Positions 23,906 through 36,733 of a stretch of DNA of 64,000 nt are shown here, one piece after another (the stretch's first letter is position 1; each line of letters opens with the position of its first letter). Position numbers and translations under genes: made by a program. The stretch comes from Nitrospina sp. GTDB taxonomy: Bacteria; Nitrospinota; Nitrospinia; Nitrospinales; JACRGP01. The stretch is from NCBI GenBank assembly GCA_024648695.1, contig JACAVV010000006.1, forward strand, positions 124,001 to 188,000, written 5' to 3'. The notes beneath the pieces are model-generated. The model had not been told where the DNA came from, made no database searches, and was given only the letters and a program-made list of their open reading frames with translations.

Positions 23906-26900
23906 ATGACTACAAATATTTCTTATTTAATTTTTCGCAAATTTCCTATATTTTTTGCGGTAATTTTTCTTAGTTTTATTTTCGTAGATTTTTCTTTATC
24001 AGAACCCATTGATGCCGACATGGTTTTAAGGAGCGAAAGTACCGAAAGCCTGTTTGGATACTCGGTGGCATCTGCGGGCGATTATAATGGGGATGAAATC
24101 AACGATTTGATTGTAGGTGCCTATAACGATTCCGGCAGTGGGATCAATGCAGGAAAGGCGTTTGTTTTTCTGGGCCGGAATTCAGACGAGGCCCTCACAT
24201 TAAACCCGGAAACCGACGCCGATATCATATTCAATGGCGAAAGCAACAGTTTTTTCGGATTCTCAGTGTCGAGCGCAGGCGATTTCAATGGTGATGGGTT
24301 TGACGATGTCATTGTCGGAGCTCCCTTTGCAGACCGCAACAGCGAGACCAATTCCGGAGCGGCTTATATATTTTTTGGTGGACCCGGGTTTACGATTGGA
24401 AGTCAAACCGAACTGAATGCATCCAGCGATGCCAATGTCATACTCGAAGGCCAAAGTGCCGGGGATCAGTTCGGATTTTCGGTAGCTTCTGCTGGTGATT
24501 TTCAGGGTGATGAGGATGATATTCAGGATGTCATCGTCGGTGCCCCGGAAGATGATAATAATGATCAGGTAGACTCTGGTAGCGTATTTGTTTTTTTCGG
24601 TCAGGATCCCGACTCCCAAATCCTCCTGAGAGCGGATGCTTCTGCCGATATTCGCATTGATGGCCAGGGAAGTAGTGGTAACGATTTCGTGAGGTTCGAC
24701 GATGAATTTGGCTGGTCGGTTGCTTCGGCAGGTGATTTCAACAATGATGACATCAATGACGTCATCATAGGAGCTCCCGGCGACGACAATTCCGGAGATG
24801 AAGGCAGCAATGTGTTCGACGACTCAGGTGCCGCCTTTATTTTTTTTGGAGGAATCCCTGCAGGAAATTATAAAGCGGATGACGATGCAAATGTGATCAT
24901 CAATAGCACCGATTTTCAGGACAATTTAGGATTCTCCGTAGCGGGGGTGGGTGACTTCAATGGAGACGGATTTGACGACGCCATTGTGGGTGCCCCTTTT
25001 GATGATAACAATAACGAGAATATGTCTGGAAGTGCTTTTATCTTTTTTGGAAGCAATATCGTTTCGCAGACAACTTATACCGCAGACACGGATGCAAATA
25101 TTATTCTGAATGGGCAGAGTGAAGGGGACCGGTTAGGCTGGTCGGTTGCTTCTGCAGGGGATTTTAATGGCGATGGACTGAACGATGCGATCGTTGGGGC
25201 TCCCAAGGATGACAATAATAGTGAGATTGGTTCGGGGTCGGCTTTTATCTTCTTTGGGGAAAACCCCGGAATGCAAATCAGCTTGCGTGCCGATTCGGAT
25301 GCAGATTTAATTCTTGATGGAGTAAACGGAAATGGAACCCCAACTGAACAGGGTGATGAGTTTGGCATTTCTGTTTTTTCTGCCGGTGACTTTTTTGGTT
25401 CGGGAACTCCAACGGTGATCATAGGTTCCTGGCTAGCGGATTCAAATGATCTTGATAATAATGCCGGGACTGCCTACCTGCTTCAGGGATTGAATGTGGC
25501 GTTCAACCAGTCGACCTCTGATACCTTGGAATCTGCAGGATCCCATACGGTCAATGTTTCCCTAAGCATACCTAATCCCTTTCCATCCAATATTACCGTC
25601 GATTTTTCAGTCAATGGTTCCGGAACCACTGCCATAGGCGGAGGCACCGATTATTTGTTGAATGCAGGAACTTTAACTTTTCCACAAGGAGTGCAAACTC
25701 AGGGAATCACCTTCCCGATAAACAATGACAACCTGGACAGTGATGACGCCAACGAAAGCGAATTGGAAACGATTGAAATTATTTTATCGAATCCTGTCAA
25801 CGCCGGCCTGGGAATTATTGATTCCCACAATTATACCATTATAGATAATGACGGCGACGACACTACAGCGATGGGAAACATCAGTGCCACCTCCCCCACG
25901 GTATACATGAATACAACCAGTTCCAGTGGTTTTGAATTTGTTACCTCTGTAAATGTCGAAGTGAAATTATCAAACGCGGTTTCCAATCAGGTGGGAGTGG
26001 AATTTGAAATTGCTGGTGGAACTGCAATCGAAGGCACCGATTATAATCTCGTTACCACATCTCCATTAGTATTTAATCCCGGCCAGACTTCGCAAAATAT
26101 CACATTGCAAATTATCAATGAATCGATTTTGGAAAATGATGAAACCATTGAGATCGATTTATCGGAAAGCCCGGTCAATGCCTCCACCGGAATCAGAAGT
26201 TCACACGTGTATACCATTTTAGCGGGGGACAATAGTTTTGTACCTTCTATTGGATTCGATATCACTAACGACTCCATTACGGAATCTGACAGCAATCCTC
26301 AAATAGCGGTTTCCCTTTCCAGCGAAACTGGAAAAAAAGTAACTGTGGAATATCATTTGGTAAATCAAAGTCAGGGAGGAAACAGTTTTTCAATAAACAC
26401 AGGAATGCTCACCTTCGAACCGGGAACCACCAGTCAGAATATTTCGGCCACCGTAGTCGATGACGATAAATTTGAAGGTGAAGAATCGGTGTTATTGAGT
26501 TTGTACCATCCGAAAAATGCTACTTTAGGCGAATCCTCTCATGTTTTCAGTATTACCGATAACGATACGGCTCCAACCGTCGCTTTCGATTCTTCCGAAT
26601 CCGAGGGAGATGAAGGCGACACTACCATTGAATTGGCCGTTTCTCTTTCCGCTGAATCCGGACTAACGGCTACCGTTGATTATGATGTGACTGGGGGAAC
26701 GGCTGAAGGGAGTGGGGCCGACTTTACTCTGGAGTCGGGAACTCTGACTTTCGAACCCGACACCATCACACAAAACATATCTTTAACCATAAATGATGAC
26801 GGCTTGAATGAGGCCATGGAAACCCTGGTGGTCACCTTAAGTAATCCGGATAATGCCACGCTGGGAACCAATACATCCCATACCTTTTCCATTACCGATA

Positions 26901-28084
26901 ATGACTCCGCTCCTACAGTTGAGTTTGACTCCACAAGTTCTCAAGGTGATGAGACGGTGAGCGCCATGGATATTCCCGTATCTCTTTCTGAGGTTTCCGG
27001 ACAAACGGCTACAGTGGATTTTGAGGTTAGCGGAGGAACGGCAGTAGCCAATGGAGAAGATTTCACACTCGATTCAGGAACCTTAACTTTTGAAGCAGGA
27101 AACACCACTAAAAATATTTCTGTCACAATTGCAAGCGATCTGATTGATGAACCGAATGAAACCATAGAAATCACCTTATCCAATCCTTCCAATATCGATT
27201 TGGGCACCAACACGATCCATATCTATACGATAAACGATGATGATGACGCGCCCAAAGTGGCATTCGACTCTTCCGCTTCGGAAGAAATGGAAACGGTAAC
27301 CCCAGCAAAAATTCCGGTTTCATTAACTGGTCCTTCCGGATTTACCGTTTCGGTGGATTATGAAATAACCGGAGGAACGGCTTCTCCAGGCCTGGATTTT
27401 GTATTAAATTCCGGAACACTTTCCTTCGATCCTGGGACACAAACTCAGGAAATTTCAGTAATCCTGAGGGATGACGATTTTACCGATCTTGATGAAACCC
27501 TGATTCTCACCCTCAGCAATCCGTCCAATTCTATAATAGACACCAACAACACGCATACCCTCACCATCATTGACAATGACCTGCAAGTTCCCGTCAAGAT
27601 ACTGGAGGTTGTTTCACCCTACTGGCAATTGGATTCCGCTTCCTATACATTTATAGGAATTTCACACCCTTCCCTATCAAGAATGAGTTCCCGAATCGGT
27701 GTCCGGGTAAAAGTACGGTTAAAATCCGGAGAGTTATTACAGCAACCTTTAGAGTTCACAATCCGTTCTAACCAAACTCAAAGATTATTTATTGTACAAA
27801 GCAACCACCCCTTCCTTAATCCGGTTACACTTCCAAACGCCTTGTTCCTACTTGGTGATTCTACCGCAAGTAAAAGTGGAAATTTAAAATTCCAATCCCT
27901 CGCCTCCAATCCCGATCAACCCCTGAATGGAACTTTGATTTCAGGTCATGCCGACATTTCCATGCTCAATTTTTGGGGAGCGGTCGTGGTTCAAGCCACG
28001 TCCACCGGTTTCGCTATGGAGTTTGTTGGAGATAACAAAGATTCACGTGCCTTCAATACTCTAAATTTTAGTGGCATCAATTAA
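23906..28084 (+). CDS. Giant exported FG-GAP / Calx-beta protein
   Basis: 1392 residues. Signal peptide about 1-32. Residues about 35-530 hold seven FG-GAP (integrin-alpha-like) repeats, six with a calcium-loop GDFNGDG-DD.IVGAP pattern (for example AGDFNGDGFDDVIVGAP); the seventh is degenerate (GDFFGSGTPTVIIG). They should fold as a seven-bladed propeller. Residues about 535-1225 hold six Calx-beta domains, recognisable by V.Y.VTGGTA...DFTL.SGTLTF.PG...Q.I and ETL..TLSNP. The last ~160 residues are a domain shared with the neighbouring giant protein, ending GFAMEFVGDN...FSGIN. Likely a calcium-stabilised cell-surface or secreted adhesin. Start ATG 23906 lacks a strong Shine-Dalgarno. Confidence 0.9.
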   Translation: MTTNISYLIFRKFPIFFAVIFLSFIFVDFSLSEPIDADMVLRSESTESLFGYSVASAGDYNGDEINDLIVGAYNDSGSGINAGKAFVFLGRNSDEALTLNPETDADIIFNGESNSFFGFSVSSAGDFNGDGFDDVIVGAPFADRNSETNSGAAYIFFGGPGFTIGSQTELNASSDANVILEGQSAGDQFGFSVASAGDFQGDEDDIQDVIVGAPEDDNNDQVDSGSVFVFFGQDPDSQILLRADASADIRIDGQGSSGNDFVRFDDEFGWSVASAGDFNNDDINDVIIGAPGDDNSGDEGSNVFDDSGAAFIFFGGIPAGNYKADDDANVIINSTDFQDNLGFSVAGVGDFNGDGFDDAIVGAPFDDNNNENMSGSAFIFFGSNIVSQTTYTADTDANIILNGQSEGDRLGWSVASAGDFNGDGLNDAIVGAPKDDNNSEIGSGSAFIFFGENPGMQISLRADSDADLILDGVNGNGTPTEQGDEFGISVFSAGDFFGSGTPTVIIGSWLADSNDLDNNAGTAYLLQGLNVAFNQSTSDTLESAGSHTVNVSLSIPNPFPSNITVDFSVNGSGTTAIGGGTDYLLNAGTLTFPQGVQTQGITFPINNDNLDSDDANESELETIEIILSNPVNAGLGIIDSHNYTIIDNDGDDTTAMGNISATSPTVYMNTTSSSGFEFVTSVNVEVKLSNAVSNQVGVEFEIAGGTAIEGTDYNLVTTSPLVFNPGQTSQNITLQIINESILENDETIEIDLSESPVNASTGIRSSHVYTILAGDNSFVPSIGFDITNDSITESDSNPQIAVSLSSETGKKVTVEYHLVNQSQGGNSFSINTGMLTFEPGTTSQNISATVVDDDKFEGEESVLLSLYHPKNATLGESSHVFSITDNDTAPTVAFDSSESEGDEGDTTIELAVSLSAESGLTATVDYDVTGGTAEGSGADFTLESGTLTFEPDTITQNISLTINDDGLNEAMETLVVTLSNPDNATLGTNTSHTFSITDNDSAPTVEFDSTSSQGDETVSAMDIPVSLSEVSGQTATVDFEVSGGTAVANGEDFTLDSGTLTFEAGNTTKNISVTIASDLIDEPNETIEITLSNPSNIDLGTNTIHIYTINDDDDAPKVAFDSSASEEMETVTPAKIPVSLTGPSGFTVSVDYEITGGTASPGLDFVLNSGTLSFDPGTQTQEISVILRDDDFTDLDETLILTLSNPSNSIIDTNNTHTLTIIDNDLQVPVKILEVVSPYWQLDSASYTFIGISHPSLSRMSSRIGVRVKVRLKSGELLQQPLEFTIRSNQTQRLFIVQSNHPFLNPVTLPNALFLLGDSTASKSGNLKFQSLASNPDQPLNGTLISGHADISMLNFWGAVVVQATSTGFAMEFVGDNKDSRAFNTLNFSGIN

Positions 28085-28176: not shown

Positions 28177-31100
28177 ATGGTAAAAATGACTACATTTACA
28201 GCAAAGCTGTTTTTTCCTTTATTTGCACTTATATTTTTCATTCCTTCCCTTTGGGCCTCTCCTGTTCAAAATAAAAGTTTATCTGAAAAATTTTCATTGG
28301 AGTCAAATGGGACTACTTTAAAGTTGCTTCAAAAGGTTGAAGCTCTGAACCTATCTCTCCATCAATTGTCCCTGGATGGCTTTTCCAAAGTGGAAATTCA
28401 TCAACCGTCTCCCACTTCTAAATTTATTTTGAATGCAAATGGTTCAAGTATAAATACAATTGACGCTTTTTGGTCCAATGGCCAATTGGAAATCCGTTCC
28501 CCGGATTCTCTGACCCTTGGTGAGAAAATTAACATCACGGCTCCTTCACTTTTTATTTCTGCAGAAAATATCAACATGGGTGGAGAACTAATTTCAGAAG
28601 GAGGAACCATAGCAATCCACTCAATGGACTCGCTGATTATTAAAGGTAACATCGATGTTTCCGAAGACAAAGCTGGCCTCATTGAATTAGAAGGGCGTGT
28701 TGTGTATGTGTTGGGAAGCCTTGATGCGAATGGAAAATCGCAAGCTGGAAAAATCCTGATAAAGGCCGAAAATATTCTTCAAGCAGGCAACATATCTGCT
28801 GATTCTGAAAATGGCCCTGCTGGAGAAATCGACCTCGAATTCGATCATCGATATATCGACCAGGAAAATAGTAGTGTCACGGCTTCCTCCAATTCCGGAG
28901 AATCAGGAGGGAGCATTCGACTATTAGGCGGACCCAGGGCTCGCCTTTTTTCATCGGGTCAGCACAAGGTAACCGGAAATTCCGAACCAGGCCACGGAGG
29001 AGAAATCCAGTTTTTGGGACAAGACTTGTTTTTAGAAGGTGCCCGGTTGGATGCTTCCGGCTTTGCTGGGGGTGGAATAATCCGCGTGGGTGGCGATTAT
29101 CAAGGATCCGGTTCTCTTCCACAAGCGCGAAGCACCAGGATTTCAGCCGCTTCTGTATTGATGGCTGATGCCAGGGAATATGGATCCGGAGGGGATGTGG
29201 TTATTTGGTCAAAAAATCAAACGCAATTTTTTGGTCAAGTAAGCGCCGAAAGCCCAAATAAAAATGGCTTCGTAGAAATTTCCAGTAAGGACAAACTGAA
29301 CTCGGTCGGGGCGGTTTCTTCGGGAACCCTGCTTTTGGATCCAAAAGATGTCAACGTTGATGATAGCGCCACCACATTTCCTCAAATTACAATCACGGAC
29401 CCCAATCCCAATGGAAGTAATTTTGGAGAATATATTGTTCCTCTTACCAATGGCAACTATGTGATTACCGACTCGGGCGATAACCTCAACGGCACCAAAA
29501 GCGGAGCGGCTTATCTTTTCAATGGCAAGTCAGGAGCTCTGATCGCCACTTTGACGGGGTCCGCAATGGATCACGAGGTGGGTTCAAGTGGTATTACCGC
29601 TTTAACCAATGGCAACTATGTCGTTGAAAGTCCACTTTGGGATAATGGGGGAACTGCAGATGTAGGGGCCGTGACCTGGGGTAATGGCTCTACTGGAATC
29701 AGCGGTGTCGTCAGTACCGACAACAGTCTTCATGGAACCACAGCCGGCGATGAGGTTAGCAGTGAATCTCCTACCGCTTTACCCAACGGCAATTATGTTG
29801 TAACCAGTCCGGAATGGGATAATGGGGGAACTGCCAATGCAGGAGCCGTGACTTGGGCAAATGGCGATAAAGGCCTTACAGGTCCTGTGACCACTGCCAA
29901 TAGTTTATATGGAACTACTGCAAGTGACAGTGTCGGGGATAGTGGTATCGTTGTTTTGAGCAATGGGAATTATGTCGTTCCAATCTCTAAATGGGACAAT
30001 GGGGCAATGATGGATGCGGGAGCCGCAACCTGGGGGGATGCCAGCATGGCTATTATGGGCGCCGTAGACTCTTCCAATAGTTTAGTTGGAACCTCTGCTG
30101 ATGATAAAGTCGGGAGTGGCATCACAGCTCTAACAAACGGCAATTATGTCCTCCGAACTCCCAATTGGGACGATGGGGGAACGGCAAATGTCGGGGCCGT
30201 GACCTGGGGTGACGGCTCCTCAGGCACGAAAGGCCTCGTCAGTAAATTCAACAGTCTGTATGGTTCCACTATGGAGGACCGAATCGGTGATGCTGGGGTA
30301 ATTGCCTTGACCAATGGGAACTATGTGGTTGCCAGCAACGATTGGGATAATGGTGGAACCGTTGATGCCGGAGCTGTTACCTGGGGAGATGGTTCCATGG
30401 GTACCGTGGGCGAGGTAACCACTGCAAACAGTCTTTACGGCACCACAGCCGATGATAATGTAGGCCTCAACCATTTAGCTTTGACCAATGGGAATTACGT
30501 TATTATGAGTCGTCTCTGGGACAATGGTGGGACGGCAAATGTCGGTGCCGTGACCTGGGGAAATGGTTCCATGGGTACCGTGGGCGAGGTAACCACTTCA
30601 AACAGTCTTCACGGAGTCACAGCAGGCGACTCCGTTAGTTTCTCAGCCGGCACGACCGTTGCGGCATTGACTAATGGAAACTATGTTGTGGGAAGCGGTT
30701 TATGGGATAACAACGGGACAGCGGATATCGGAGCGGTTACCTGGTGTGATGGGTCCACTGGAACTACAACGGGACCCGTCACCACATCTAACAGCCTTTA
30801 TGGAACCACGGCAAGCGATAGAATCAGTTCAGGCGATATTACCGCTTTGAATAACGGCAATTATGTGGTGGCGAGCCATCAATGGGATAACAGCGGCACG
30901 GTTGATGCCGGAGCGGTTACCTGGGGAAATGGCACCATGGGAATTACAGGGCCGGTCAGCGTTTCAAACAGTCTGTATGGTACCACCGCCAGTGACCAGG
31001 TGGGAGAAACAGGGATTACAGCATTGGCAAATGGGAATTACGTTGTCATAAGCAAATTATGGGATAACGGCGGCACAGCTGACGTAGGCGCCGCCACATG

Positions 31101-33879
31101 GGGAAACGGAACAACGGGGATCACCGGACCTGTGAGTACTTCCAACAGCCTGCACGGTTCTACGGCCAGCGATGAGGTGGGTGGAACCAATGTTCAGGAA
31201 TTAGACAATGGCTCATATGTGGTGGTAAGTCGTAATTGGGACAACGGGGGCAATGCCGATGCCGGAGCAGTCACCCTTGCCGATGGAAATAAAGGAATAA
31301 CAGGCCCCGTGACTAATCTCAACAGCGTTATTGGACAAGCCGCCTCCACAGTTGTGACAAATAATGTTGATAATGACCCAACAAATAATACCTTTGCAGT
31401 AGGATTTTTGGATGAAGGAACCGGCACCGTCCGGCTTGCATGCGACACCCTGGATTCACTCTCTTTTGGGTGTTTGGCTAATGATTCGGCAACCATCACT
31501 TCTCAGTTTCTCACCGATGTTTTAAATACCGGAACCGCGGTCAGCCTTCAGGCCAACAATGACTTGACCGTGACAAGCGCCATTACGGCAAATAACCCTG
31601 GCGGTGATGGAGGCGCGCTCACGCTTCAAGCCGGACGAAGTGTTTTTATCAATAATAATATCACTACGGACAATGGCGCCCTCACCATTATAGGTAACGA
31701 TCTGCTCGCCAATGGAGTTGAAGACGGCGCTCGGGATGCCGGTAATGCGGTCATCACAATGAATGGAGGAACCAATCTTGATTCCGGTACCGGCCCTATC
31801 ACGATTGAGTTGCGAACTGGAAGTGATAAGACCAATACCGGATGCGGCGATGTGAGCCTCGAGTCGGTGAGCGGAGGTGTTCTCACTGTGGATGTGCAAT
31901 GCAACACGTCCACTCTGATGATTAATAATGCAATCAATGCAAGTTCGGTAACCCTGGATGCCGATAACGATATCAGTTTTTCCGCAAACGGAGACATCAC
32001 CTCTACCGGGACCCTTATGGTGCGAGCCGATTCAGATTCCAATTCCGATGCAGGCTCCGGAGGAGCGCTCACCATGGTGGATGGCTCGGTTCTGGATGCA
32101 GGTGCATCTTCTATCACTTTGAGCGCGGACGAGAACATCACTTTAGCCAAAGTGATGACGACAGGTTCTTCCAATTCTGCGGTGACCCTCACTTCCGTCA
32201 GCGATTCTATTGTAGACGCGGGAACCACGGCTGAAAATGTCACCGCCACCAACGGAGGAATTGTCGTCACTACGGGCATGGACCTTGGTGAGTCGAGCAA
32301 CTTTATCGAAGGCACTGTCAATACACTCGATTTAAGTGGCGTTGCGGGGTCTGACTTTTTCAACAATGCCGGAACCACTGTTGGATTCGATAGCACTTTC
32401 AGCAATGGCGAAGAATCAACCACCAATGTGAACCTCGGTGTTTCCCTAAACCAAATTAATGGCACCACTACGGTGGCCTACGCGGTTACTGGAGGGACGG
32501 CTTCAGGAAGCGGAACGGATTTTACTTTGGCTAACGGCACCCTCACCTTCACGCCCGGAGACAATACAGAAAATATTGCCTTAAGTGTCGTGGATGATTT
32601 TATTGAGGAAGGCGATGAAACAATCATAGTAACTTTATTGAATCCATCCAACGCCAATTTGGGGTCGAACACAACACATATCTATACTATCAACGCAAAC
32701 GATACTCAGCCAACGGTGGCTTTTGATTCTTCCAGTATCGCTGTTGCGGAATCTGCTGGTACGGTAAATATACCCGTCTCCCTTACAAATAACTTTGGTC
32801 TCGCAATCACAATCGATTATACCGTTAGCGGTGGAACAGCCACTGGCGGAGGTGTCGATTACACATTGGCATCTGGAACCCTCACGTTTAATCCAGGCGA
32901 CACCACTCAAAATATTTCGGTAAGTATCGTGGGAGACAGCTTTGTTGAGCTGGATGAAACGGTCACTCTCACCCTGTCGAATCCCGTGAACACCTCCCTG
33001 GGAGGGATTTCAACTCACACTTTGTCGATACAGGACGACGATACCGTCCCTACCCTGGGATTTGATACCACCTCTTCGGAAGCATTCGAATCATCGACCA
33101 ATCCAAGCATTGGATTATCCCTATCCAATATATTTAGTTCAGACATCACCGTGGATTATGGGGTCACCGGGGGAACAGCCACAGGGGAAGGAACCGACTA
33201 CACGTTAGCGAATGGCAACTTGACCTTCACTGCGGGTACCCTCATACAAACTATTTCCCCTACGGTAATAGACGACACTTTGCAGGAAAATAATGAAACC
33301 ATAATCATCACACTCAGTAACCCTGTCGGTGGAGTTTTGGGAAACAATTCATCCCATACATACTTTATAAACGATGACGATTTTAGCTTGCCCGAAGCCA
33401 AACGGGAATCCCAGGTAGTTTCTCCCTATTGGCAGATCGATAGCGCGACTTACACGTTTATTGGAGTGTCTCACCCATCTTTGGAGCAAATGAATTCCAA
33501 TATTGGAGTCCGGGCTTTGGCTATGACCAATGAGGGATTACCTTTGGTTCAACCTTTGGAATTTACCATTGAATCCAGCCAGACCCAGAGGATATTCATC
33601 ATTCAAAGCAATCACCCGTTCCTGAGTCCAACAACAGTACCGGACGGATTATTTTTAGTCGGCAATCCCGATTCCATCAAGCACGGACAATTGCAGTTCA
33701 CACCCCTGGCAACCAATCCTGAAAATATGTTTGACAATGGATATCCCGACATCACCATGTTGCATTATTGGGGCGCTGTGGTTGTTCAGGCAACATCCAC
33801 CGGCTTCGCTATGGAATTCGTTGGCGATAATCAGGACTCCAGAGCTCTCCATACCCCCTACTTCAGCGGAGTGAATTGA
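28177..33879 (+). CDS. Giant exported FHA-like / DUF5650-repeat / Calx-beta protein
   Basis: 1900 residues, ATG 28177 with GAGGG seven bases upstream. Signal peptide about 1-28. Residues about 90-385 are a filamentous-haemagglutinin-like beta-helix (ISAENINMGGELISEGGTIA; SGGDVVIWSKNQTQFFGQVS), typical of large exoproteins. Residues about 420-1055 hold one atypical and ten typical ~58-residue repeats of the form LTNGNYVV.S..WDNGGTA-GAVTWGNG..G..G.V...NSL.G (DUF5650 type). A second haemagglutinin-like segment follows (about 1120-1390), then three Calx-beta domains (about 1395-1740) and the C-terminal domain shared with the 1392-aa protein. No TpsB-type transporter gene is nearby, so the export route is open. 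Confidence 0.9.
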   Translation: MVKMTTFTAKLFFPLFALIFFIPSLWASPVQNKSLSEKFSLESNGTTLKLLQKVEALNLSLHQLSLDGFSKVEIHQPSPTSKFILNANGSSINTIDAFWSNGQLEIRSPDSLTLGEKINITAPSLFISAENINMGGELISEGGTIAIHSMDSLIIKGNIDVSEDKAGLIELEGRVVYVLGSLDANGKSQAGKILIKAENILQAGNISADSENGPAGEIDLEFDHRYIDQENSSVTASSNSGESGGSIRLLGGPRARLFSSGQHKVTGNSEPGHGGEIQFLGQDLFLEGARLDASGFAGGGIIRVGGDYQGSGSLPQARSTRISAASVLMADAREYGSGGDVVIWSKNQTQFFGQVSAESPNKNGFVEISSKDKLNSVGAVSSGTLLLDPKDVNVDDSATTFPQITITDPNPNGSNFGEYIVPLTNGNYVITDSGDNLNGTKSGAAYLFNGKSGALIATLTGSAMDHEVGSSGITALTNGNYVVESPLWDNGGTADVGAVTWGNGSTGISGVVSTDNSLHGTTAGDEVSSESPTALPNGNYVVTSPEWDNGGTANAGAVTWANGDKGLTGPVTTANSLYGTTASDSVGDSGIVVLSNGNYVVPISKWDNGAMMDAGAATWGDASMAIMGAVDSSNSLVGTSADDKVGSGITALTNGNYVLRTPNWDDGGTANVGAVTWGDGSSGTKGLVSKFNSLYGSTMEDRIGDAGVIALTNGNYVVASNDWDNGGTVDAGAVTWGDGSMGTVGEVTTANSLYGTTADDNVGLNHLALTNGNYVIMSRLWDNGGTANVGAVTWGNGSMGTVGEVTTSNSLHGVTAGDSVSFSAGTTVAALTNGNYVVGSGLWDNNGTADIGAVTWCDGSTGTTTGPVTTSNSLYGTTASDRISSGDITALNNGNYVVASHQWDNSGTVDAGAVTWGNGTMGITGPVSVSNSLYGTTASDQVGETGITALANGNYVVISKLWDNGGTADVGAATWGNGTTGITGPVSTSNSLHGSTASDEVGGTNVQELDNGSYVVVSRNWDNGGNADAGAVTLADGNKGITGPVTNLNSVIGQAASTVVTNNVDNDPTNNTFAVGFLDEGTGTVRLACDTLDSLSFGCLANDSATITSQFLTDVLNTGTAVSLQANNDLTVTSAITANNPGGDGGALTLQAGRSVFINNNITTDNGALTIIGNDLLANGVEDGARDAGNAVITMNGGTNLDSGTGPITIELRTGSDKTNTGCGDVSLESVSGGVLTVDVQCNTSTLMINNAINASSVTLDADNDISFSANGDITSTGTLMVRADSDSNSDAGSGGALTMVDGSVLDAGASSITLSADENITLAKVMTTGSSNSAVTLTSVSDSIVDAGTTAENVTATNGGIVVTTGMDLGESSNFIEGTVNTLDLSGVAGSDFFNNAGTTVGFDSTFSNGEESTTNVNLGVSLNQINGTTTVAYAVTGGTASGSGTDFTLANGTLTFTPGDNTENIALSVVDDFIEEGDETIIVTLLNPSNANLGSNTTHIYTINANDTQPTVAFDSSSIAVAESAGTVNIPVSLTNNFGLAITIDYTVSGGTATGGGVDYTLASGTLTFNPGDTTQNISVSIVGDSFVELDETVTLTLSNPVNTSLGGISTHTLSIQDDDTVPTLGFDTTSSEAFESSTNPSIGLSLSNIFSSDITVDYGVTGGTATGEGTDYTLANGNLTFTAGTLIQTISPTVIDDTLQENNETIIITLSNPVGGVLGNNSSHTYFINDDDFSLPEAKRESQVVSPYWQIDSATYTFIGVSHPSLEQMNSNIGVRALAMTNEGLPLVQPLEFTIESSQTQRIFIIQSNHPFLSPTTVPDGLFLVGNPDSIKHGQLQFTPLATNPENMFDNGYPDITMLHYWGAVVVQATSTGFAMEFVGDNQDSRALHTPYFSGVN
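29440..31335 (+). repeat. Array of about eleven DUF5650-type coding repeats, ~174-bp period
   Basis: Each unit begins with an NGNYV-type segment and contains WDNGG, GAVTWG and NSL-G. Protein period about 58 residues, DNA period about 174 bases. A 33-base stretch is identical at 30391-30423 and 30565-30597, exactly 174 bases apart, so at least one unit was duplicated recently. The first unit (around 29440) is atypical. Confidence 0.85.
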
Positions 33880-33883
33880 GGCG

Positions 33884-33912
33884 TTGACAGGTTGTCGTTC
33901 CATCCGTATCCT
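33884..33912 (+). promoter_or_regulatory. Sigma-70-type promoter of the MoxR gene pair
   Basis: TTGACA (33884-33889), 17-base spacer, TATCCT (33907-33912). Begins five bases after the stop of the 1900-aa gene, so the MoxR pair appears to have its own promoter. Predicted start about 33919. Confidence 0.6.
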
Positions 33913-33951
33913 TTAGAGAATTATTAATTCTATTTGGAACGGTCTTATTAC

Positions 33952-34890
33952 ATGGAATACAATAGCAAAACGGTCACTGTAGAAGGAGTGACGCTGGTAC
34001 TCAATCAACCTGACGATTCGGAACCGCAATGGATCGGGCAGGATGAAATACTGAGGCAGATTCTAGCATGCTGGCTGGTGGTATCTGAAAAGGATTTTCC
34101 ACTGTCTCCCCGCATTGTGGGGATGCCGGGCATCGGCAAGACCACATTGGGAATGGTCGCGGCGAAATCGCGCAAACAACCTTTGTATATTTTTCAATGC
34201 ACCAGCGACACGCGTCCGGAGGATTTACTAATCACTCCGGTGTTAGCGGAATCCGGCAAGATTTCGTATCACGCCTCTCCTCTCGTGACAGCCATGCTAC
34301 AAGGCGGCATTTGTATTCTGGATGAAGGCAACCGCATGAATGAAAAGAGCTGGGCTTCGCTCGCGCCTTTGCTGGATCACCGGCGTTATGTGGAATCCAT
34401 CATTGCCGGAATCAAGATTCAGGCTCATCCAGAGTTTCGTTGTTGCGTGACGATGAATAATGACGAATCGACCTTTGAAATTCCGGATTACATTCTTTCC
34501 AGACTGCAACCTACCCTTTCCTTGTCCATGCCTTCGTTCAAGGACGAAATGGCTATTCTCAAATATCACCTTCCCTTTGCGGATGCGGAATTACTTAACA
34601 TGACGGTTGAGTTTTTGCAGAGGTCGCATCAACTGGACCTCGATTATTCGCCTCGTGACGGAATTCATATTTTGCAATACGCGCTCAAGCGCATGAGTCA
34701 GGATTTGGAACATCCTCTCTCCAAAGATTCAGTTTGGCGGGAGTCTATCGAGAAAGTCCTGGGCGAAGAGGCTCTCGATCTGGACAGTCTGGCGGAAAGA
34801 AAGCGCCGTGCTCTTGGAAGCGAGAGCCTTCCAATGGGTCTGGGCGATTTCTTTTTCAACGAGGACAGCCCCTTGCATCCTGATTCCTGA
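33952..34890 (+). CDS. MoxR-type AAA+ ATPase
   Basis: 312 residues from ATG 33952 (TTG 33934 in frame as alternative). Walker A GMPGIGKT (57-64), Walker [11 protein letters not shown] with D124-E125, sensor-1 segment VTMNND (166-171), and a downstream ILSRLQP arginine region. The call is to the MoxR/dynein-like AAA clade, ATPases that usually act as chaperones for a partner protein encoded next door. Twenty bases separate its stop from the next gene, so they form an operon. No von Willebrand-A gene, the usual MoxR partner, is present. Confidence 0.88.
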
Positions 34891-34909
34891 TTTCTATTCC
34901 GACAAATCA

Positions 34910-36733
34910 ATGACCGATATTTTTAAACTCAGCGACCGAGTCCGCTTACTACCCGTAGTGTACGGTAGCGGCAATTTCAGTCAGGCCATTCGCAAACAAT
35001 TGCTAGGATCGCAATGCGATTGCCTGGCCGTATGCTTGCCGCCGGAGTTCCAATCAACCGTGGAGGCTGGAATTGAAAAACTGCCATACATTACCCTGAG
35101 TTGCCTGCCAGAAAAAGAGGACGTGTTTTCATACGTTCCCATCGATCCTTGTCAGCCCACCATCATGGGCTTAAGGATAGCGATGCAGGAGGGAATCCCA
35201 AGAGCCTTTGTGGACCGAAGTGTTGCGGAATACCAAGTACGGCGTTTCGATTTTCCGGACACCTTTGCTTTACGCAAACTCTCTATGGAAACGTTTTGTG
35301 CAGGCTTTCTTCCGGCGATCCCCAAACCTGAACGAGATGACCAGGCGGATTTACGTGCGAAATGGATTGCCTATCGGCTACACAGTCTGGAGGTGGATCA
35401 TTCCCGGATTGTTTGCATTTGTTCGATCCTCGATTGGCCCTGGATCAAGCGCGCATTCGATGAACGGGAAGCCTATAGCAAACCCGAAGCTCTAGATTCC
35501 ACTCCCCGCCTTTGGGGCCTGGAGCCGAACACGCTGTTTTTTGCGCTGTCCGAATTTCCTTACATCACATATTTATATGAAAAGAACCGGGAAGAGTTGC
35601 GGTCGGACAAAGACCTTTCAGTGGACGGGGTTAAAGAAATAATTTTGAAAGCCCGTGACCTGTTTCTCGAAAAGCGCAAAGGGCGGTACCATAATTTAAA
35701 TGCTTCAACTTTACAAATTTACTTGCAATACCTCCGCAACCTGTCGCTGATGGAAAATCGACTCACACCCGATTTATACACTTTAGGTTCCACCGCCAGA
35801 CAGATTGGTGGCGATGTTTTTTCTCTAGCTGTAATTGAAGCCGCCCGGGAATACCCGTTTCAGAGCCAGTATCCGGAAATGGAAACCATGAGTTTGGGGA
35901 TTGAAAAGGCCAGCATTGACGACGAGCATGTGGTGACCATGAAAAACCGTCTTTCCGAAACGGCTTATGAATGGCGTAACCTGAATTTGAAGGTGGAGCC
36001 GGATCCTGAAAAACAGGACCAATGGCGCTATACCTGGAATCCTTACGGACAGTGCTCCTGGCCCCCGGAGGATGACCGAATTGAAAGTTTTCATACCCAT
36101 GTGAGGGAGCAATCGAAACTCTTGCTTTCCTCGGATTTGGCGCGCAGTGAAAAATTTACTTCCTCGGTTAAAGACGGGATCGACATGCGTGAGACATTGA
36201 GAAACTGGCACACTGGGGACATTTATGTTCAGGAAATTCCACCATCAAAAGGCAAAGTCGAGATCGTGGTCTTTCTGTTCGAAATGGAACCCGATCCCAA
36301 GAAGTATTCATGGTGCCAAACCTGGTTTGCCGAGCACCAGGAAGAATCGACCCTTTGTTTTTTCGCAACCAGTTTTGGGGATAAGCTGATAGGTCCCGGC
36401 ATCGCACAAGCCACTTACGGAGGCTGTATGATGATCTTTCCTCCACGTCCCATACCCAATATTTGGGAGGATCCAAGGTTGTATCACAGTTCTACTTTGG
36501 AAGAAAAACTGCTGGAAGGGGCATTTTTTCATTCCCGGGAACGTCACGTGACGGTGGTCTCTCCAAATCTCCCACCTGTAGCATGGAAACAGTTGGCCCG
36601 TTTTTACAAAAAACGGATAATCCACATTCCATTAAAACGCTTTTCTCATCAAACCATCGAAAAAATTCGATGTTTTCATGTTTTAAACGGAAAAGAAATA
36701 CGCTCGTTCGCAAGCCGCTTTATTGGGGAATGA
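34910..36733 (+). CDS. MoxR-associated protein, possible EreA/TraB-like (DUF5682-type)
   Basis: 607 residues, ATG 34910 twenty bases after the ATPase. I do not recognise it with certainty. The N-terminal third has the layout of EreA/ChaN/TraB-like proteins used as the third component of MoxR ternary systems: CDCLAVCLPPEFQSTVEAGI, then YVPIDPCQPTIMGLRIAMQE ending GIPRAFVDRS, and RLHSLEVDHSRIVCICSILD. The middle (about 285-350) is helical. The C-terminal ~200 residues (VEIVVFLFEMEPDP; STLCFFATSFGDKLIGPGIA) are a mixed alpha/beta region without DxSxS, so it is not a plain VWA domain. No signal peptide or transmembrane helix. Confidence 0.55.
   Translation: MTDIFKLSDRVRLLPVVYGSGNFSQAIRKQLLGSQCDCLAVCLPPEFQSTVEAGIEKLPYITLSCLPEKEDVFSYVPIDPCQPTIMGLRIAMQEGIPRAFVDRSVAEYQVRRFDFPDTFALRKLSMETFCAGFLPAIPKPERDDQADLRAKWIAYRLHSLEVDHSRIVCICSILDWPWIKRAFDEREAYSKPEALDSTPRLWGLEPNTLFFALSEFPYITYLYEKNREELRSDKDLSVDGVKEIILKARDLFLEKRKGRYHNLNASTLQIYLQYLRNLSLMENRLTPDLYTLGSTARQIGGDVFSLAVIEAAREYPFQSQYPEMETMSLGIEKASIDDEHVVTMKNRLSETAYEWRNLNLKVEPDPEKQDQWRYTWNPYGQCSWPPEDDRIESFHTHVREQSKLLLSSDLARSEKFTSSVKDGIDMRETLRNWHTGDIYVQEIPPSKGKVEIVVFLFEMEPDPKKYSWCQTWFAEHQEESTLCFFATSFGDKLIGPGIAQATYGGCMMIFPPRPIPNIWEDPRLYHSSTLEEKLLEGAFFHSRERHVTVVSPNLPPVAWKQLARFYKKRIIHIPLKRFSHQTIEKIRCFHVLNGKEIRSFASRFIGE

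Follow-up and report, generated by a model that had tools for sequence, protein, structure and literature searches.

What does a MoxR ATPase do when the large protein encoded beside it is not a VWA protein? In the accessible part of PMC13036017, VWA proteins are described as the typical partners with which MoxR-like ATPases remodel targets and insert metals. We examined a two-gene locus in a stretch of 64,000 nucleotides (the window) from a 4.2 Mb genome that is closest, among public genomes, to Nitrospinota. The original prediction had combined a MoxR ATPase with a 607-residue partner of EreA/TraB/ChaN-like N-terminal layout, without a VWA gene and with a promoter of their own, into a possible minimal or diverged conflict or stress module.

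Both open reading frames were found as predicted, separated by 19 nt, and the genes that adjoin them are not VWA genes (Table 1). A family profile search detected the partner family in 56 of 100 relatives and in 38 of 246 Planctomycetota genomes, and its presence in the relatives shows that the frames are more than chance. The ATPase, which has an alternative TTG start at 33934, scored 65 bits against the Pfam family AAA_5 (cut-off 22) and 27.6 against AAA_3 (cut-off 27). Its closest solved relatives by phmmer are Midasin, CbbQ and NorQ, and it has Walker motifs, which were read by eye. The predicted promoter stood in its sequence and position, with TTGACA at 33884-33889 and TATCCT at 33907-33912, beginning 5 nt past the upstream stop codon that ends at 33879. 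It did not stand as more than a chance match, since the promoter scan found 7 such sites in the region, close to the level in shuffles (3.9 ± 2.2). In the Pfam scan of 45 window ORFs, several genes near the pair belong to core functions (carbamoyl-phosphate synthase, MurJ, topoisomerase and Trp enzymes), and no VWA family was among the 25 listed of the 76 matching families.

Table 1. Features of the MoxR-partner locus, in window coordinates
Feature	Position	Strand	Basis
Sigma-70-like promoter match, TTGACA-17-TATCCT	33884..33912	+	10/12 consensus positions
MoxR-type AAA+ ATPase, 312 aa from ATG	33952..34890	+	Pfam AAA_5/AAA_3, phmmer
Walker motif, MoxR residues 57-65	34120..34146	+	Read by eye from sequence
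Walker B, CILDE, MoxR residues 121-125	34312..34326	+	Read by eye from sequence
Partner protein, 607 aa, new family	34910..36733	+	ORF and family profile searches
Partner N-terminal domain, residues 1-188, predicted TIKI/EreA/ChaN/TraB-like fold	34910..35473	+	AF2, VIA-align, profile
Tyr18, superfamily His position (His in 44/47)	34961..34963	+	Alignment
Cys42, Glu position (class I and 18/18 DUF5682 have Glu)	35033..35035	+	Alignment
Asp175, second His position	35432..35434	+	Alignment
Partner helical middle region, residues 189-330	35474..35899	+	AF2 secondary structure; DUF5682 alignment reaches residue 304
Strongly conserved C-terminal region of the partner, residues 331-607	35900..36730	+	Alignment, AF2

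In direct searches with the partner, no Pfam family matched at E<=1, NCBIfam, PADLOC and PHROGs gave no match, and the partner profile found nothing among PDB sequences at E<=10. A BLASTP comparison of the single proteins likewise found nothing between the partner and E. coli YehM, the DUF5682 (PF18934) protein that goes with the MoxR YehL and the VWA protein YehP. When family profiles were compared with hhalign, residues 9-304 of the partner aligned with residues 2-331 of YehM, the DUF5682 profile consisting of YehM and 17 sequences. DUF5682 ranked first of 47 profiles with the 47-row partner set (P 2.5e-11; next 0.058) and first of 57 with the 57-row set (P 2.5e-14; next 0.031), both sets holding some genomes twice (L057/L132 and L061/L133), and the reversed DUF5682 profile scored 0.38-0.44 as a control. 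We rejected the window protein as a member of DUF5682 proper, as it has no match above the Pfam gathering score; PF18934 matches 3 of 29 relatives weakly, with a best E of 0.0082.

The AF2 model of the partner, made from 33 sequences, has a mean pLDDT of 68.0, with residues 1-200 reaching 74-97 in blocks of ten. In VIA-align, residues 1-188 matched a Tetrahymena complex IV chain (Z 10.9), ChaN (2g5g; Z 8.6, rmsd 4.1 over 141), HopBA1 (5t09; Z 7.4) and the Ere-like structures 2qgm (6.8) and 3b55 (6.4), while a Foldseek search with the whole model had no match at E<=0.001. In the accessible part of PMC6254334, HopBA1, 3b55, ChaN and RRSP are grouped in the TIKI superfamily. Furthermore, the partner family profile matched 396-residue Nitrospinota proteins with E down to 1e-7, and the three that were scanned are all TraB_PrgY_gumN proteins (E 4e-33 to 2e-34). 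These comparisons show that the first ~300 residues of the partner are homologous to DUF5682/YehM and strongly indicate that its modelled N-terminal domain adopts a TIKI/EreA/ChaN/TraB-type fold, in agreement with the N-terminal layout and the DUF5682 tie that had been proposed.

Another part of the prediction, that no VWA gene adjoins the pair, holds across the relatives. A YehP-type VWA profile matched 19 of 21 DUF5682 loci, whereas it had no match in any ORF of the partner loci examined or of 15 loci around MoxRs that do not adjoin a partner. Two broader VWA profiles matched at these partner and MoxR loci only at L105, which also has a second MoxR-like gene nearby. The genome-wide VWA survey covered PF05762, which gave a sub-cut-off match in the window's genome, passed the cut-off in 1 of 61 genomes (the window's own included), and had no match at E<=0.001 in G150 and G171, two Planctomycetota genomes with the pair. 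Gene context gave no clue to a client, and unlinked partners and MoxRs have different neighbours from one lineage to another.

The MoxR and its dedicated partner co-occur almost perfectly and co-vary. At E<=1e-30, 54 of the 100 relatives and 40 of the 246 Planctomycetota genomes have the cognate MoxR, and both genes are present in 53 of the former (hypergeometric p 2e-23) and 38 of the latter, that is, in all 38 that have the partner (hypergeometric p 1e-42). The three relatives with the partner only (G003, G039 and G072) all carry it at a contig edge, and MoxR occurs alone in G108, G254 and G074. A search of 387 genomes also revealed the partner family in 14 genomes of a 'same domain' group, at least two of which are not new, as the match coordinates in G459 and G596 nearly equal those in G126 and G150, Planctomycetota genomes already counted. 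The assignment to Planctomycetota follows the record title of L064 and the phylum grouping of its genome. In one scan that named 35 partner loci, nearly all from Nitrospinota and one from Planctomycetales, 30 extend 490 bases or more upstream of the partner, and MoxR lies directly upstream in 27 of these 30, but not at L053, L054 and L064. Of 28 Planctomycetota loci (L099-L126), 18 have MoxR upstream in the same orientation, once with an intervening gene, while in the other 10 it lies elsewhere in the genome. The two genes of G207 lie on one contig at 1.6 and 4.6 Mb, and gene positions revealed further unlinked pairs in G318, G283 and G329, so that at least 13 of the 38 Planctomycetota pairs are unlinked in total. 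Several linked pairs have a 4-nt gene overlap.

These unlinked genes weaken the operon argument for the two proteins. Given that they co-occur in all 38 genomes although at least 13 pairs are unlinked, the gene content nevertheless implies that MoxR and the partner very probably work together. Their pairwise distances are correlated over 52 pairs (r 0.92), within the partner classes I (0.85) and II (0.91) described below and among 10 unlinked pairs (0.965), with 0 of 2000 permutations as high in each of the last three; common descent along the species tree accounts for part of this correlation.

The C-terminal region contains many near-invariant residues. Modelled alone, it reached a mean pLDDT of 56.8 and had no match of note in the PDB (best Z 3.7); its best structural matches, RNase H/integrase-like folds with Z < 4, were discarded as noise. 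An unlikely reading, although the likeliest of the alternatives, is that a VWA protein is present after all, as part of the partner. The partner would then be a compacted DUF5682-VWA fusion with residues 331-607 as a YehP/CoxE-type VWA domain without MIDAS, and the E. coli yehL-yehM-yehP triad would be contained in two genes. About 25 residues ahead of a predicted strand lies the motif DGIDIRETLR, which is similar to the DFKSTLR that precedes the first VWA strand of YehP, and the weak best hhalign match of the region to a VWA profile falls on this motif, but the match is not significant (P 0.33, rank 22 of 47; 0.16 with 57 members). Similarly, AF2 predicts alternating helices and strands in residues 505-606, yet no VWA fold was among the matches listed for the low-confidence C-terminal model. 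The domain order agrees with that of the single-chain proteins L145 and L152, while residues 331-607, as read from the sequence, contain no DxSxS motif of a MIDAS.

All 18 DUF5682 sequences have His, Glu and His at the three aligned catalytic positions. Among the 47 partner sequences, 15 retain His/Glu/His (class I), one reads PEL, and 31 lack both the Glu and the second His (class II), with Asp at the second His position in 30 of these and Glu in one. The window protein, with Y18, C42 and D175, thus departs from the His/Glu catalytic residues shared by the TIKI/EreA/ChaN/TraB superfamily. Class II consists of Nitrospinota and some Planctomycetota, and its 31 sequences form one side of a branch with support 98/96; the DUF5682 rows of this tree are long-branched and its root is unsure, but the placement of class II on one side of the branch is independent of the root. 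Ten further partner sequences include four HEH as well as the mixed states HDH (L219), HDD (L222) and SGH (L226), suggesting that the loss may have been stepwise and that the class boundary is not perfectly sharp. On the assumption of the ExH spacing of RRSP, the second Glu of the 2His/2Glu set would be at column 16, where 0 of the 47 sequences have Glu. The replacement of the lost His by a conserved Asp suggests a new role rather than decay.

These residues bear on the possibility that the pair is an ATP-dependent hydrolase or stress module, in which MoxR would hand substrates to the TIKI-like domain for cleavage of their peptide or ester bonds. TIKI enzymes share the 2His/2Glu set and include proteases and Ere-family relatives, as described in the accessible part of PMC6254334, and class I could fit such a function. 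However, the window protein belongs to the branch from which the Glu and His are gone, and we consider such a module quite doubtful here, although a diverged stress module keeps some likelihood.

Median identity to the relatives is 78.6% for MoxR (25 loci) and 64.1% for the partner (29 loci), as compared to 35.5-72.3% for five flanking genes with at least 10 comparisons each; both genes evolve at the flanking-gene rate or slower, and both are common to most of the larger Nitrospinota genomes. In the neighbour ORFs (92 and 94 ORFs), no recurrent VWA or effector was found among the 25 commonest Pfam families. PADLOC matches among the 94 ORFs have 3-4 members each; most are to PD-T4-6 and further models named after kinases, which fits the protein kinases detected by Pfam in this ORF set. 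The biological-conflict (anti-phage) module of the original prediction, minimal or diverged, is therefore very improbable: MoxR with a DUF5682-like component recalls the MoxR-VWA ternary systems in the accessible part of PMC7159879, but the pair has neither a VWA gene nor, among the commonest neighbour families, a recurrent effector nearby, the PADLOC matches beside it are largely kinase-named, the partner itself is unmatched in PADLOC and PHROGs, and both genes are conserved like core genes. The 'DUF5682-type third component' of that prediction did not come from PMC7159879 either, since the strings DUF5682 and EreA are both absent from this paper, the accessible part of which gives VMAP, iSTAND and FtsH as the third components.

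We favor, with about even confidence, a two-component, VWA-independent MoxR machine in which the class II partner is a non-catalytic adaptor of TIKI fold. The partner would take the place that the VWA protein has in NorQD, CbbQO and RavA-ViaA. It would bind a client, perhaps via the conserved C-terminal region, and offer it to the MoxR ring for ATP-driven remodelling or activation. A class I TIKI site might still be able to hydrolyze one of the client's bonds. Class II partners, the window protein among them, have lost the Glu and His positions, with a conserved Asp in place of the His, so that each is most likely a non-catalytic adaptor, which may serve the maturation or quality control of a putative housekeeping complex. 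More tentatively, we propose that a MoxR machine swapped its VWA adaptor for a TIKI-fold protein, and that the clade containing the Nitrospinota lost the ancestral class I hydrolase site, a small residue replacing the Glu and the conserved Asp replacing the His. An enzyme would thereby have become a dedicated, co-inherited AAA+ adaptor with a putative housekeeping client.

As compared to DUF5682 systems, the VWA-independent pair has the same arrangement, in which a large protein whose first ~300 residues are homologous is encoded behind a MoxR gene, and class I partners have the His/Glu/His positions in common with DUF5682. On the other hand, the window protein is below Pfam detection and differs in its C-terminal region, the window MoxR is not alignable to YehL by BLASTP, and the VWA gene typical of DUF5682 loci is missing; the two families coexist in some Planctomycetota genomes. 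The partner resembles the TIKI/EreA/ChaN/TraB superfamily (ChaN 2g5g, Bcr135 3b55, HopBA1 5t09 and RRSP) in the predicted fold of residues 1-188 and in its profile matches to TraB_PrgY_gumN proteins, whereas it is much larger, has a conserved C-terminus, is paired with MoxR and, in the window, carries Tyr, Cys and Asp at the catalytic positions. With the NorQD, CbbQO and RavA-ViaA machines it shares a NorQ-/CbbQ-like AAA+ ATPase with a dedicated, co-inherited partner, which in the window is not a recognizable VWA protein. The ternary conflict systems of PMC7159879, as far as its accessible part describes them, likewise combine a MoxR-type ATPase with a large companion, but the pair lacks a vWA protein, an identified VMAP, iSTAND or FtsH companion and recurrent effectors among the 25 commonest neighbour families, and it is not patchy in the larger Nitrospinota genomes.

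We found no description of the MoxR-partner pair in the accessible text of the literature searched, nor one of the partner branch under the name DUF5682. Since the pair persists without a recognizable VWA protein, even when its genes are megabases apart, it offers a compact system for probing the role of the DUF5682/TIKI component, and the members of classes I and II provide a natural test of enzyme versus adaptor.

Several minor observations accompany these results. Immediately upstream, two giant proteins (23906-28084 and 28177-33879) contain FG-GAP, Calx-beta and DUF5650 repeats, with 11 DUF5650 stretches in the second; they look lineage-specific, as they have no counterpart in the syntenic loci compared. 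The 396-residue Nitrospinota TraB/PrgY proteins (L215 4740-5930, L216 5161-6351 and L217 4276-5466) have hydrophobic stretches in their C-terminal part. In the single-chain DUF5682-VWA proteins of Planctomycetota (L145 and L152; 1273 and 1131 aa), YehM and YehP are fused. Two loci in records titled Alphaproteobacteria and Nitrospirota (L062 and L059, respectively) hold copies 74-75% identical to the Nitrospinota gene and are probably mis-binned contigs. At L225 (9205-11091), the MoxR open frame is 628 aa long, its second half carrying the AAA domain, and represents either a fusion or an over-long frame. Finally, L214 (2906-5826) encodes a diverged MoxR-partner pair of 284 and 743 aa, in which His/Glu/His is intact and the C-terminal similarity is weak, and which is a possible link between the partner family and DUF5682.
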